Source: Acidobacteriota bacterium
GTDB taxonomy: Bacteria; Acidobacteriota; Blastocatellia; Pyrinomonadales; Pyrinomonadaceae
Assembly (NCBI GenBank): GCA_025463135.1
Contig: JAOAPY010000032.1
Location: 124,001-188,000 of the forward strand
Direction: 5' to 3'
Length of the DNA stretch: 64,000 nt
Made by a program: the position numbers and the translations under genes. Shown here piece by piece: positions 29,427 through 39,497 of the stretch (position 1 is the first letter of the stretch; each line of letters begins with the position of its first letter). Under the pieces are notes generated by a model. It was not told where the DNA came from. It searched no databases and saw only the letters and a list, made by a program, of their open reading frames with translations.

Positions 29427-30668
29427 ATGTCAATTGGATTTCCTGGACGCAAGACCGCGTGGCTAACTTTGCTGGTTGTCACTCTGATTGGATTGGCAAT
29501 CGTGCTCGCTCCGGTCTGGATCATTCAACCTTTCAAACCGCAATCGCCGAGAGGTCTGGCCTGGTCCTATGTAATGCGCAGTTGGTCGCCGCTGGTGACG
29601 ATCGTTTGTTCGTTGTTGGCGCTGGCACTGTTGGTCTACCTGTGGCGGGGCACGCGCCGCTGGTGGCGCAAAGCCGCGCTGGTTGCGATCATTCTGCCAT
29701 TGCTCGCAGTGACCTGGTTGGCGCGACAGAACCACTTTGAGTGGATGTTTCATCCGCTTCCAAATGCCGCCTATGCCCGATTACCGGAAGCCGGATTTGT
29801 GGCTGACGCGGATATGGTCATGACCATTCGGAACAAAGGCGAGGCAGTGGCTTACCCGATCCGTTTGATGGCCTATCACCACGTGGTCCAGGACACAGTT
29901 GGGGGCACGCCAGTGGTCGCTACTTATTGAACGCTCTGTCACACCGGTCTGGTGTGGGAGACGACGGTCAATGGGCGGCAACTTCATTTCCATCTCGCGG
30001 GCATTAACAATCAGAATTTCATCATGCGCGACGAGGAGACAGGCTCCTGGTGGCAGCAGGTGACTGGCGAAGCGATTTTTGGCCCGCTTAAAGGACAACG
30101 ACTAACGCCGGTAATTCATGATGAGTTGACGTTTGGATTATGGAAGCGAGAAGAACCCGCGGGCCGGGTGTTGCGGCCAGATACAAACGTCGAAGCCGCA
30201 GGAGAATACGCGCCGGCTGATTGGGAAGCGCGCATGCAAAAAGTGCGAGTGACCACTGCCCAAATTTTGGACGCTTCGCTCAAACCCCGCACGCTGGTCG
30301 TGGGTGTCGTCAGCCACGGTGCGGCAAAGGCTTATCCGTTGGACGCGCTGCTGAAACAAAGCCCGGTACTTGATGACGTGGGTGGCGTCCCCATCATTCT
30401 GGTGGTTGGGACCGATCAGCGATCCGTGCGCGCTTACGAAAGATTGGTGGACGGTCGCAAGCTCGAGTTTTTCGCGCGACCGCCATCGTCGGAAGTGCGC
30501 CTGGTAGATGCAGAGACCGGCAGCGAATGGGACTTTACCGGCAAGGGGATTAGCGGTGCGCTCAGCGGACGCCAGCTGAAAAAGATACCCGTGCTAAACG
30601 ATTATTGGTTTGACTGGAAGACTTACAATCCCAGCAGCACGGTTTATGAGTTAGGCGCCCGACAGTAA
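29427..30668 (+). CDS. DUF3179 membrane protein with in-frame UGA at a conserved Cys: candidate selenoprotein
   Basis: One reading frame of 414 codons runs across 29427-30668, interrupted only by TGA at 29928-29930 (codon 168). Three membrane segments (about 8-30, 50-72, 80-97) lead into a DUF3179 domain: GEAVAYPIRLMAYHHVVQDT, GGTPVVATY, then TGA, then TLCHTGLVWE. DUF3179 proteins normally have TYCxLCxTG here, so UGA replaces the first Cys of CxxC. Downstream, NGRQLHFHLAG, SWWQQVTGEAIFGPLKG and a second half-repeat (AKAYPLDALLKQSPVLDDVG) are intact for 246 codons. A hairpin with loop GGUCU begins 10 nt after UGA. Alternatives are nonsense mutation or a base error; then the locus is a pseudogene. 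DUF3179 function is unknown. Confidence 0.72.
29934..29960 (+). promoter_or_regulatory. Candidate bacterial SECIS element
   Basis: Upper stem CACACC/GGTGTG (29940-29945 with 29951-29956), apical loop GGTCT (29946-29950), a T-G wobble at 29939/29957, then a TG bulge and a lower CTC/GAG stem (29934-29936 with 29958-29960). The loop sequence equals the GGUCU of the E. coli fdhF SECIS, and its offset from UGA is only about 3 nt shorter. Inferred from sequence alone. Confidence 0.6.
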
Positions 30669-30678
30669 AGTCCAGGCT

Positions 30679-30744
30679 TAGAGTTCCGACTTCAGTCGGG
30701 TTTTTTGTCATTCGAACGACCCGACTGAAGTCGGTACTCTAAAC
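30679..30744. repeat. Family I doublet; first hairpin resembles a terminator
   Basis: CCGACTTCAGTCGG followed by GTTTTTTG, a spacer, then CCGACTGAAGTCGG and TACTCTAAAC. The first hairpin plus T-run, 18 nt after the DUF3179 stop, looks like a weak rho-independent terminator. Related fragments are at about 11955 and 59323-59349. Confidence 0.7.
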
Positions 30745-35517: not shown

Positions 35518-37326
35518 ATGACAGTCCACCTTCCAAATGGGCCGCTCAACAGGCGCGGATTAACTCGTTGCGTGGCTGCGGTCGTATTCGCCATCTGTTT
35601 GTCACTCGCCACCAGCTATGCTCAGCAACCCACTCCCACACCCACTCCTCGCACGGGACGTTCATATAGTGTGGGCGAGATGCCGAAGAACCCGCCACCG
35701 CCCGGACCTCAGGCTCAGTCGCCGGTAACGTTCAGCAACATCACATCGCAAACGAAGATCAACTTCAAACATAATGGTTCGCCGACGGCGCTGAAATATC
35801 TGTTGGAAACCATGGGCGGCGGCGTGGCCATTTTCGATTTCGACAGAGATGGCCGCATGGATCTCTTCTTTACAAACGGCGCGCTAATAAAATCACCGAT
35901 GGCTCCGGGGGCGATGCCGGACAAGCGCGATCCCCAATTCTGGAACCGGCTCTATCATCAGAAAGCCGACGGTACCTTTGAAGATGTTACTGAACGTGGA
36001 GGTTTGCAAGGCGAGGGCTGCAGCATGGGTGTGGCCGCCGCCGATTACGACAATGATGGCTTTGTCGATCTCTACGTGACCGGGTACGGCGCAAACCATC
36101 TCTATCACAACAACGGAGATGGCACGTTTACTGATGTCGCAAAGAGAGCCGGTGTAGCAGGGACCGGCTGGTCCACCAGCGCGGGCTGGCTTGATTACGA
36201 TCGCGACGGGCGGCTGGATCTTTTCGTGACTCGGTATCTTGACTGGGACTTTGAAAAGGGCGCCATCCTCTGCGGCGACAGCAGGGGTACGCGGGCCTAC
36301 TGTCACCCTGACAATTTCAAAGGCGCGTCCAACATACTCTTCCACCAAATGCGGGACGGTTCTTTTGTTGATGTAAGCGTAAAGAGCGGTGTCGCCGATC
36401 CCAATGGCAAAGGGTTAGGGGTGGCCTTTGCAGATTTCGACGGCGATGGTTTCACCGACGTCTTTGTCGCAAATGACAGCGTGCGCCAATCGCTGTATCA
36501 CAACAAAGGCGACGGCACCTTTGAAGACGTCGCCGTAATGGCCGGCGCCGGATACGACGAGGACGGCAAGACATTCGCGGGCATGGGAGTCGATGCGGGT
36601 GACTATGACAATGATGGCTATCCGGATGTGGTGGTTACCACTCTTTCTTATCAGACCTATCCGCTCTATCGAAACAACGGTGATATGAGTTTCAGTTATG
36701 TGACGAAGGCGTCAGGGGTGGGCCAGATCACTTTGCCACAGTCGGGCTGGGGCATTCGCTTTCTGGATGCGGACAATGATGGTTGGCGCGATATTTTTGT
36801 CGCCCAGAGCCACGTGCTGGATACCATTGAAATTTCAACCGGCTATTTAAAGTACAAGCAGACTCCACTGCTGATGCGCAACACGGGCAAAGGCTTTGTG
36901 AATGTATCGCTGACTGCTGGTCCCCCTTTTAGTTTGCCGCTGGTCGCTAGAGGTGCTGCGTTCGGAGACCTTAATAATGATGGCCAGATTGACGCGGTGC
37001 TTGGCGTGCTCAATGGAGTGCCCGCGATTTTGCGCAATGGCGGGACAAAAAATCATTGGCTGGGAATCGAGTTAGCAGGGACTAAATCAAATAGCGGTGG
37101 CCTGGGAGCGCGCGTGCTTGTTACAGATACTGACGGTCGCAAACAGACCTTCGATGTTTCGACGTCGGGTAGTTATCTTTCGGCGAACGATCCGCGAATA
37201 ATCGCCGGCCTGGGAACTGCCGCGGCTGTTCGCAGCGTCGAAGTCCATTGGCCCAGTGGGAAGGTGCAGATAATTTCTGATCCTCGCATCGATCGCTACC
37301 TGGCGATAAAGGAAGCAGGGGAGTGA
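35518..37326 (+). CDS. CRTAC1-family secreted FG-GAP/VCBS protein with UnbV domain
   Basis: 602 residues. A signal peptide ends at TSYAQQ (about 40). Repeated FG-GAP/VCBS modules with calcium-binding D-x-D-x-D-G loops are read along the chain (FDFDRDGRMDLFFTNG, ADYDNDGFVDLYVTGYG, LDYDRDGRLDLFVTRYL, ADFDGDGFTDVFVAND), forming a beta-propeller. The C-terminus is an ASPIC/UnbV module (GLGARVLVTDTDGRKQTFDVS... VEVHWPSGKVQIIS). Such proteins are exported and often occur with TonB receptors in acidobacteria. Their role is unknown; glycan or protein binding is plausible. Confidence 0.9.
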   Translation: MTVHLPNGPLNRRGLTRCVAAVVFAICLSLATSYAQQPTPTPTPRTGRSYSVGEMPKNPPPPGPQAQSPVTFSNITSQTKINFKHNGSPTALKYLLETMGGGVAIFDFDRDGRMDLFFTNGALIKSPMAPGAMPDKRDPQFWNRLYHQKADGTFEDVTERGGLQGEGCSMGVAAADYDNDGFVDLYVTGYGANHLYHNNGDGTFTDVAKRAGVAGTGWSTSAGWLDYDRDGRLDLFVTRYLDWDFEKGAILCGDSRGTRAYCHPDNFKGASNILFHQMRDGSFVDVSVKSGVADPNGKGLGVAFADFDGDGFTDVFVANDSVRQSLYHNKGDGTFEDVAVMAGAGYDEDGKTFAGMGVDAGDYDNDGYPDVVVTTLSYQTYPLYRNNGDMSFSYVTKASGVGQITLPQSGWGIRFLDADNDGWRDIFVAQSHVLDTIEISTGYLKYKQTPLLMRNTGKGFVNVSLTAGPPFSLPLVARGAAFGDLNNDGQIDAVLGVLNGVPAILRNGGTKNHWLGIELAGTKSNSGGLGARVLVTDTDGRKQTFDVSTSGSYLSANDPRIIAGLGTAAAVRSVEVHWPSGKVQIISDPRIDRYLAIKEAGE

Positions 37327-37652: not shown

Positions 37653-39497
37653 ATGTTTAAGACGACGTCTCATCACCTTTACCAGAAAACAATTGCGTTC
37701 CTTATCCTGCTTGTTCTTGGCGCCGCTTCTTTGAGCCAGACACCGCCCGTAAGGACGGATCAGAAACAGGAGATGGGAGGCGTCAATACCGGGCCCGCAT
37801 TGACGTATTCGTCACGACGCACCACCGGTATCACCGATGCTAAAGCGCTTATGATTTTTGAAGACGCGACGGATAAGACCGCGCTGGCAAACTTCAAACA
37901 CCACGCGGGGGGAACGGCCAAGGATTATATCTTCGAGGTTCCATCCGGTGGCGTAGCAATCTTTGATTACGATGGCGACGGTTTGCCGGATATCTATCTT
38001 TTGAATGGTTCGACAATGGCAGCGCTCCTGGGCAAGGAAAAGGCGCCGCGGGCCGCGCTTTATCATAATCTGGGCAATTGGAAGTTTGAGGATGTTACCG
38101 ATAAGGCCGGCTTGGCGAACGAGCGTTGGGGTATGGGACTCGCCGTCGGCGATTATGATAATGATGGCCGGCCGGATATTTTCGTGGGGAACTTTGGCAG
38201 CTCGCGGCTCTATCACAACAACGGGGACGGTACGTTTACCGACGTCGCCGAAAAAGTCGGCGTGGCGCGCAAGGGTTGGAGCACCGGCGCCAGTTGGGGC
38301 GATTACGATGGCGACGGCCGGCTCGATCTTTTCGTTCCCGGCTACCTGGAAATCGATTTGAATAATTTGCCGCGCAATCCCAGTGAGGCCGGGAAACCGG
38401 GAGGTGCGGGCCAGAACTTTTGTCAGTTCCGCGGCGCTCCGGTGATGTGTGGACCGCGCAGCCTTACAGGGGAAAGCGATACCCTCTATCATCAAAAGCC
38501 CGACGGTACTTTTGAGGATGTGAGTGTCAAAGCAGGCGTTAACGATCCGCAGAAGTATTACGGATTCTCATCCGCATTCGTCCACGTTAACGAGGATGAT
38601 CTTCTCGATCTGATTGTCGTAAACGATTCAACTCCCAAACAGCTCTACCTGAACAAGGGCGATGGAACTTTCGAAGAGGTTGGTTATCCCTCGGGCGTGG
38701 CCCTTAACGAAAATGGTCGCGAGCAGGCCGGCATGGGAGTGGCCGTCGGCGATTACGACAATGATGGCCGCGTCGATTTCCATATCACAAACTTTTCCGA
38801 TGATTCGAACGTGCTTTATCACAATGACGGTGACGGCAATTTCACCGACATTACTTTCCTCGCGGGCCTGGGCGAGATAACGCTTCCTTTTCTTGGCTGG
38901 GGCACCAGCTTTATCGACTATGACAATGATGGTTGGCAGGATCTGATTGTGGCTAACGGTCACGTGTATCCGGCGGTCGATAATAATCAGTGGGGAACCA
39001 GTTACGCCCAGCAACCGCTCCTGTTTCGTAATTTGAAGAACGGCAAGTTCGAACGGGTGGGGGCAGCCCCAGGTAGTGCGCTGGCCTCTTCATGGGTATC
39101 GCGCGGCCTGGCGGTCGGGGATTTGGACGGTGATGGGCGCCTTGATGTTGTCCTTAATAACGTGGACTCAAAACCGACGGTGCTGAAAAACGTCAGCGCG
39201 GCGCCCGGGCATTGGGTAAGCCTGCATCTGGTTGGCGACGTGGCGAAGAAAAGTCCTCGCGATGCAATCGGGGCCATCGTCTATCTCACCACCGGCAAGG
39301 TTCGTCAGCGCCAGGACGTGGTGAGCGGTGGCGGCTATGCATCGCAGAACGACCAAACCCTGCACTTTGGTCTGGGCACTGCGACCAGCATCGACAAAGT
39401 TGAAATTAAGTGGCCTGATGGCAGCATGGAAACTATCTCGATTCCCACGATTGATCGAAAGTTCACAGTAACTGAGGGTAAGGGTCTGACGAAGTGA
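37653..39497 (+). CDS. Second CRTAC1-family secreted FG-GAP/VCBS protein with UnbV domain
   Basis: 614 residues, paralogous to the gene before it. Signal peptide about 1-30 (LILLVLGAASLSQ). Successive calcium-loop modules: FDYDGDGLPDIYLLNG, GDYDNDGRPDIFVGNFG, GDYDGDGRLDLFVPGYL, GDYDNDGRVDFHITNFS, IDYDNDGWQDLIVANG. The UnbV-type C-terminus is DAIGAIVYLTTGKVRQRQDV and VEIKWPDGSMETIS. It differs by two CQF/MCG cysteines in a loop near 250. It has its own promoter and precedes the ROK regulator. Confidence 0.9.
   Translation: MFKTTSHHLYQKTIAFLILLVLGAASLSQTPPVRTDQKQEMGGVNTGPALTYSSRRTTGITDAKALMIFEDATDKTALANFKHHAGGTAKDYIFEVPSGGVAIFDYDGDGLPDIYLLNGSTMAALLGKEKAPRAALYHNLGNWKFEDVTDKAGLANERWGMGLAVGDYDNDGRPDIFVGNFGSSRLYHNNGDGTFTDVAEKVGVARKGWSTGASWGDYDGDGRLDLFVPGYLEIDLNNLPRNPSEAGKPGGAGQNFCQFRGAPVMCGPRSLTGESDTLYHQKPDGTFEDVSVKAGVNDPQKYYGFSSAFVHVNEDDLLDLIVVNDSTPKQLYLNKGDGTFEEVGYPSGVALNENGREQAGMGVAVGDYDNDGRVDFHITNFSDDSNVLYHNDGDGNFTDITFLAGLGEITLPFLGWGTSFIDYDNDGWQDLIVANGHVYPAVDNNQWGTSYAQQPLLFRNLKNGKFERVGAAPGSALASSWVSRGLAVGDLDGDGRLDVVLNNVDSKPTVLKNVSAAPGHWVSLHLVGDVAKKSPRDAIGAIVYLTTGKVRQRQDVVSGGGYASQNDQTLHFGLGTATSIDKVEIKWPDGSMETISIPTIDRKFTVTEGKGLTK

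Follow-up and report, generated by a model that had tools for sequence, protein, structure and literature searches.

Probable selenocysteine insertion at an in-frame UGA of a DUF3179 gene, and the distribution of this UGA in Acidobacteriota

The DUF3179 gene at 29427-30668 on the plus strand of the window (the whole 64-kb stretch of DNA that was analyzed) very probably encodes a selenoprotein. As judged from sequence comparison, selenocysteine (Sec) would be inserted at the in-frame UGA at 29928-29930, with a probability of roughly 0.94. The relevant features are listed below.

29427-30668, plus strand: probable DUF3179 selenoprotein gene of 413 codons with Sec at codon 168 (translation, Pfam, conservation)
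29928-29930, plus strand: in-frame TGA, read as Sec168, the first residue of UxxC (translation, homologues)
29928-29939, plus strand: UxxC motif, residues 168-171 (UTLC, followed by His172; translation, alignment)
29939-29957, plus strand: SECIS-like hairpin with a 6-bp stem and a flanking U-G pair (folding, relatives)

Translation of the frame gave an ATG at 29427, 167 sense codons, the TGA, 245 sense codons and a TAA at 30666-30668; the 246 open codons counted after the TGA in the initial annotation are thus 245 sense codons plus the stop. DUF3179 (PF11376) was matched by residues 113-403 with 210.4 bits (curated cut-off, 27), and a search of the protein against NCBIfam returned only an unrelated model (E 0.12, far under its cut-off). 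U168 was aligned with the first cysteine of the T[YF]CxxC motif of the homologues, in agreement with the initial proposal that the TGA replaces the first cysteine of the family's CxxC. A reading with the standard code splits the gene into two open reading frames. Since the UGA is also widespread in Acidobacteriota, many DUF3179 copies are likely to be mis-annotated.

The hairpin is composed of CACACC (29940-29945), the loop GGTCT (29946-29950) and GGTGTG (29951-29956). The spacer between TGA and stem is nine bases long and the stem begins at the tenth, as initially described. A loop distance close to that of the fdhF SECIS had also been claimed. In the record of Escherichia coli K-12 fdhF the loop lies 18 nt from the UGA, compared with 15 nt here, i.e. 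3 nt closer in the present gene, which counts slightly against the reading. Both elements share the apical loop GGTCT and a short stem just after the UGA, whereas the E. coli protein is unrelated to DUF3179. Folding of 29921-29985 yielded -24.7 kcal/mol (z -3.42, none of 200 shuffles as good), so that a SECIS-like structure is present around the TGA. An Rfam scan of the 64-kb window revealed no family at the gathering score. Stem pairs are broken in three relatives (L128, L141 and L148). The argument that the hairpin exceeds chance rests mainly on its conservation in relatives. According to the proposed mechanism, SelB together with Sec-tRNA(UCA) would recognize the hairpin just 3' of the UGA and insert Sec168, resulting in a single 413-residue protein with the UxxC motif (UTLCH).

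The genome of the host, a soil-type bacterium (6.48 Mb, listed completeness 100), was searched for the selenocysteine machinery, as the initial annotation had suggested. All components were present: a single tRNA-Sec that passes the Rfam cut-off and has the anticodon TCA, and one copy each of selA, selB and selD over the cut-offs. Host selD (L019, C42:181825-182751, minus strand) itself looks like a selenoprotein gene, with an in-frame TGA near the N-terminus (SCSGU by eye). A hairpin CGCTCA-GGTTT-TGAGCG was seen by eye about 30 nt downstream, although the minimum-energy fold chose otherwise.

Relatives were collected in two sets, which overlap and are therefore not independent. In the class-wide search of 162 genomes, DUF3179 was found in 56. 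Only loci with a TGA read at the motif were counted, because a single TGA in a search row is not itself evidence of Sec. This was the case for 41 loci: 39, each from a different genome, are of the TYUTLCHTG type, and two have TWUPLC. In the TYUTLCHTG subfamily the UGA stands at the motif in all 39 class genomes read; among these loci, L080 carries a frameshift, a TAG truncates L081, and L082 and L083 are interrupted by contig edges. Scanning of named genomes yielded 58 loci, of which 55 were used after removal of three without a readable motif (L147, L150 and L151). A TGA was present at the motif in 54 of the 55, and a cysteine in the remaining one (Puia, Bacteroidota). The taxa covered include Pyrinomonadaceae, Blastocatellia, Thermoanaerobaculia, Vicinamibacteria, Bryobacterales, Acidobacteriaceae and two Gemmatimonadota. 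For a 47-row alignment, 46 of the 55 loci were taken; seven failed the length filter, and L123 and L132 were left out. Homologues carried either Cys or UGA at codon 168. Decay 3' of the TGA, named at the outset as a sign against the reading, was found in few cases: the frame is intact in nearly all relatives, the exceptions being L080/L103 and L081, with L082 and L083 at contig edges.

Within the class, selB was over the cut-off in 132 of the 162 genomes, and its co-occurrence with Sec says little there because the gene is common anyway. In the 39 class genomes with Sec, selB was over the cut-off in 29; eight of the other ten had selA over the cut-off and two had fragments only. Some further DUF3179 genes were observed alongside. 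L055 and L056 (G016 and G017) mark two genomes with two adjacent DUF3179 genes each; these have a TGA at both motifs (YUPVC and WUPLC) and belong to other subfamilies than the window gene. In other Acidobacteriota the Sec-type motifs UTLCN, UPLAS and UPLCH were noted (L219, L220 and L221), L220 being without the second cysteine. The lone class genome with the Cys form TYCTVCRTG (L078 in G076, 75% complete) had no selB at E 1e-50 and no selA match. UAG was considered as a Sec codon, as TAG appeared in four genomes of one genus where sister species gave TGA, and TAG or TAA in two of another genus. This idea was discarded after the DNA had been read: the TAG, TAA and TGA marks are C-terminal stops, and the motif there has Cys.

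A search of 396 genomes of the phylum revealed ten full-length orthologues without an internal stop, all with TYCTLCHTG and the codon TGC. Their codons +2 to +8 vary, whereas all 12 Sec orthologues compared have CAC ACC GGT CTG GTG at +4 to +8. Folding energies of the 38 nt that follow the codon lay between -12.3 and -23.9 kcal/mol in Sec genes and between -4.3 and -12.0 kcal/mol in nine of the Cys genes. The hairpin is thus weakened in nine of the ten; the tenth (L207) folds stably at -17.7 kcal/mol, and several retain a short stem at the same place. All 13 Sec genomes, but none of the ten Cys genomes, had selA over the cut-off, and the same holds for selB; weak selA matches (E 3e-6 to 2e-5) were obtained in five of the Cys genomes. 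The TGA of the 13th Sec genome (L233) was read after the comparison of sel genes. A tree of 55 selected rows was calculated by a quick method without bootstrap, after masking of the Sec/Cys column; no motif was obtained for L235. The ten Cys rows formed one clade (SH-aLRT 100) within a clade (97) holding six Sec rows, and two changes of state suffice; the rooting branch is weak (76). On this quick tree, Sec would have been gained once in the subfamily and have reverted to Cys once, in the clade without selA and selB. The missing selA and selB make this clade a natural test of the selenocysteine reading, and the comparison supports the view that Cys stands in for Sec where the machinery is missing. 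This control is strong, yet it amounts essentially to one event, with the whole Cys clade in one family.

Sequence conservation after the UGA was analyzed in 54 sequences including the window (L145 was too short), and the codon table used 53 of them, with the frameshifted L103 left out. The 27 bases 3' of the UGA are identical in 30 of the 54. Among codons +1 to +8, the six that are at least four-fold degenerate had a relative entropy of at most 0.38, compared with at least 0.50 for all 67 conserved codons of like degeneracy in the rest of the gene (46 rows, L149 left out). The His codon +4 is frozen as well, in contrast to the Cys171 codon +3 (rank 93 of 127), so that synonymous freezing affects seven of the first eight codons behind the UGA. 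Base-pair covariation is weak because there is hardly any variation in the hairpin. Changes on both sides were seen for two pairs. The covariation score was reached by 115 of 500 shuffles, and the further pair types by 464 of 500. The share of paired cells (86.2% versus 84.1% in shuffled data) was reached by one of 500. The fold and the frozen synonymous sites nevertheless suggest conservation of the hairpin at the RNA level.

Two other readings of the TGA were considered. An ordinary stop would imply an assembly error, a broken gene or two separate genes, one of 167 aa and one of 238 aa that starts at GTG 29952. Both pieces are indeed present as open frames, some draft copies have extra stops or frameshifts (L080, L081), and the Cys homologue L054 has a TGA away from the motif. 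This explanation is nevertheless highly improbable given an identical TGA at the same codon across dozens of species, a frame kept on both sides of it in the 47-row alignment, a single Pfam domain crossing it, the frozen codons behind it and the sel-gene contrast between Sec and Cys genomes. Decoding of the UGA as an amino acid other than Sec, by near-cognate readthrough or a reassigned code, would equally yield the long frame, and nothing specific was found in its favor. It conflicts with the cysteine of the homologues, the 3' hairpin, the full Sec set of the genome and the ten Cys orthologues in genomes lacking selA and selB over the cut-off. Moreover, relatives still terminate genes with UGA (e.g. 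L102, L111 and L121), and we regard such decoding as extremely improbable. The checks proposed initially that could be run by computation, on the sel genes, the SECIS-like fold, the Cys or UGA of the homologues and the downstream frames, all favored Sec insertion.

Sec in DUF3179 is not new at the family level. The family is listed as a selenoprotein family with the motif UxxC/T in tables of two reviews (PMC9312934 and PMC13188914), the latter citing Zhang and Gladyshev 2007 on an Olavius algarvensis symbiont. The tabulated proteins belong to the same Pfam family and motif class as the present one, whereas the spread across Acidobacteriota and the reversion to Cys were not found in these tables. 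An initial remark that Sec-DUF3179 may already be known to annotation pipelines proved correct as far as reviews are concerned, but no NCBIfam model was found. Among the openly licensed papers listed, none was found on the Acidobacteriota-wide distribution or history of Sec-DUF3179, and none on a Rieske-like fold of the family. PMC12013277 counts three known selenoprotein genes for one Acidobacteriota genome, and one of these could belong to the DUF3179 family.

The protein architecture was analyzed with predicted models, and the following features were assigned.

29448-29720, plus strand: three predicted N-terminal helices, residues 8-98, presumably a membrane anchor (AlphaFold2 model)
29835-30143, plus strand: domain 1, residues 137-239, predicted Rieske-like fold with UxxC (predicted models)
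30315-30608, plus strand: domain 2, residues 297-394, a second copy of domain 1 that lacks Cys (self-comparison, models)
29877-29882, plus strand: His151-His152, invariant in the 47-row alignment (alignment)

In the AlphaFold2 model of the whole protein (pLDDT 93.5), three long helices at the N-terminus are followed by two beta domains. These domains are duplicates of each other (33% identity, E 8e-15 without composition adjustment; profile E 4.7e-27), and UxxC is confined to the first. Domain 1 was also modelled alone (pLDDT 92.6) and was matched best by 3gce (Z 9.0, rmsd 2.6 over 95 residues); domain 2 reached about Z 8.5 against Rieske-type structures, on a scale where Z 7 to 8 is common for unrelated models. 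The 50 matches listed for domain 1 comprise Rieske proteins, Rieske oxygenases and chains of bc1 and arsenite oxidase complexes, which are taken to be their Rieske subunits. In predicted fold both domains may resemble Rieske ferredoxins and NirD-type small subunits but they differ in sequence, with 6-16% identity in the structural matches listed for domain 1. Foldseek E values against Rieske folds were no better than 0.02 (domain 1, 0.046), and hhalign against 28 Rieske sequences (of 30 loci) gave probabilities of 0.4% for domain 1 and 31% for domain 2. A PDB sequence search with the 47-row alignment gave no match at E up to 1. A Pfam scan of the 47 alignment members (E up to 10) revealed no Rieske family among the 25 of 69 families listed, DUF3179 being the only strong family among the matches listed. 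The CxH...CxxH ligands of a Rieske [2Fe-2S] cluster are absent from both domains (residues 112-413 of the translation). The models thus predict a DUF3179 fold of three membrane helices and two duplicated Rieske-like domains without Rieske ligands. Five basic residues are located within residues 74-82, which under the positive-inside rule is a weak hint at a location of the beta domains outside the cytoplasm. The protein would then be anchored by its three N-terminal helices, with the two Rieske-like domains probably outside. The idea, formed by eye, that UxxC occupies the Rieske cluster site was dropped, as the register of domain 2 on the Rieske profile (31%) places the cluster loops elsewhere. 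Linear interpolation of the structural-match ranges, which is not a residue-level superposition, agrees with this decision.

Our best guess at the function, and one that could equally well prove wrong, is that of a membrane-anchored selenol-thiol redox protein. Sec168 would attack an oxidized substrate or disulfide and Cys171 would resolve the intermediate, with the conserved His151/His152 close by in the sequence. It is also conceivable, though unlikely, that Sec168 and Cys171 of the selenoprotein bind copper, zinc or iron together with these histidines, and that it serves as a metal or electron carrier instead of a dithiol catalyst. The invariance of both histidines in the 47-row alignment fits such a site, and a knuckle-like UxxC turn on a Rieske-like beta scaffold would suit it. 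Many other DUF3179 homologues, however, have Glu in place of His152 (WHE), and in the tables of PMC9312934 and PMC13188914 redox motifs usually take the form UxxC.

The motif could further be a site for c-type haem, reading UTLCH where Sec is present and CTLCH (CXXCH) where Cys replaces it; all 54 Sec loci and all ten Cys orthologues have His172. This is very unlikely, as position 172 in 17 other Cys homologues is His in just four (Tyr in eight, Arg in three, Asn in two), and the short motif often matches by chance. We know of no natural Sec-haem thioether, which also counts against it. A DUF3179 protein is among the candidates of a CXXCH scan of an Idiomarina genome (PMC9230427), which would favor haem binding. 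A combined model, in which the Rieske-like scaffold lost its cluster ligands and gained a new redox center on another turn of domain 1 (Sec168, Cys171 and a His metal or haem site), is unlikely; if it were true, Sec in DUF3179 would serve a membrane-anchored electron carrier as a ligand of its cofactor and would not be part of a dithiol catalyst. The predicted Rieske-like duplication and the HH...UxxCH motif give DUF3179 concrete, testable redox hypotheses.

The gene surroundings were compared at 56 places, some with short flanks, by clustering the proteins within 5 kb; no cluster occurred at more than nine, so that no support for a function came from conserved neighbours. Immediately behind the gene one further feature was assigned.

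30686-30706, plus strand: terminator-like hairpin CCGAC-TTCA-GTCGG followed by GTTTTTT (sequence)

The sequence CCGACTTCAGTCGG occurs once per strand just 3' of the DUF3179 gene (window 30686-30734), and two matches were obtained in none of 100 shuffles; the first copy of CCGACTTCAGTCGG is followed by a T run and is terminator-like. Two adjoining FG-GAP/UnbV_ASPIC proteins are encoded at 35518-37326 and 37653-39497 of the window. A cluster of similar proteins, noted with this pair, is located no more than 5 kb from the DUF3179 gene at nine of the 56 places.
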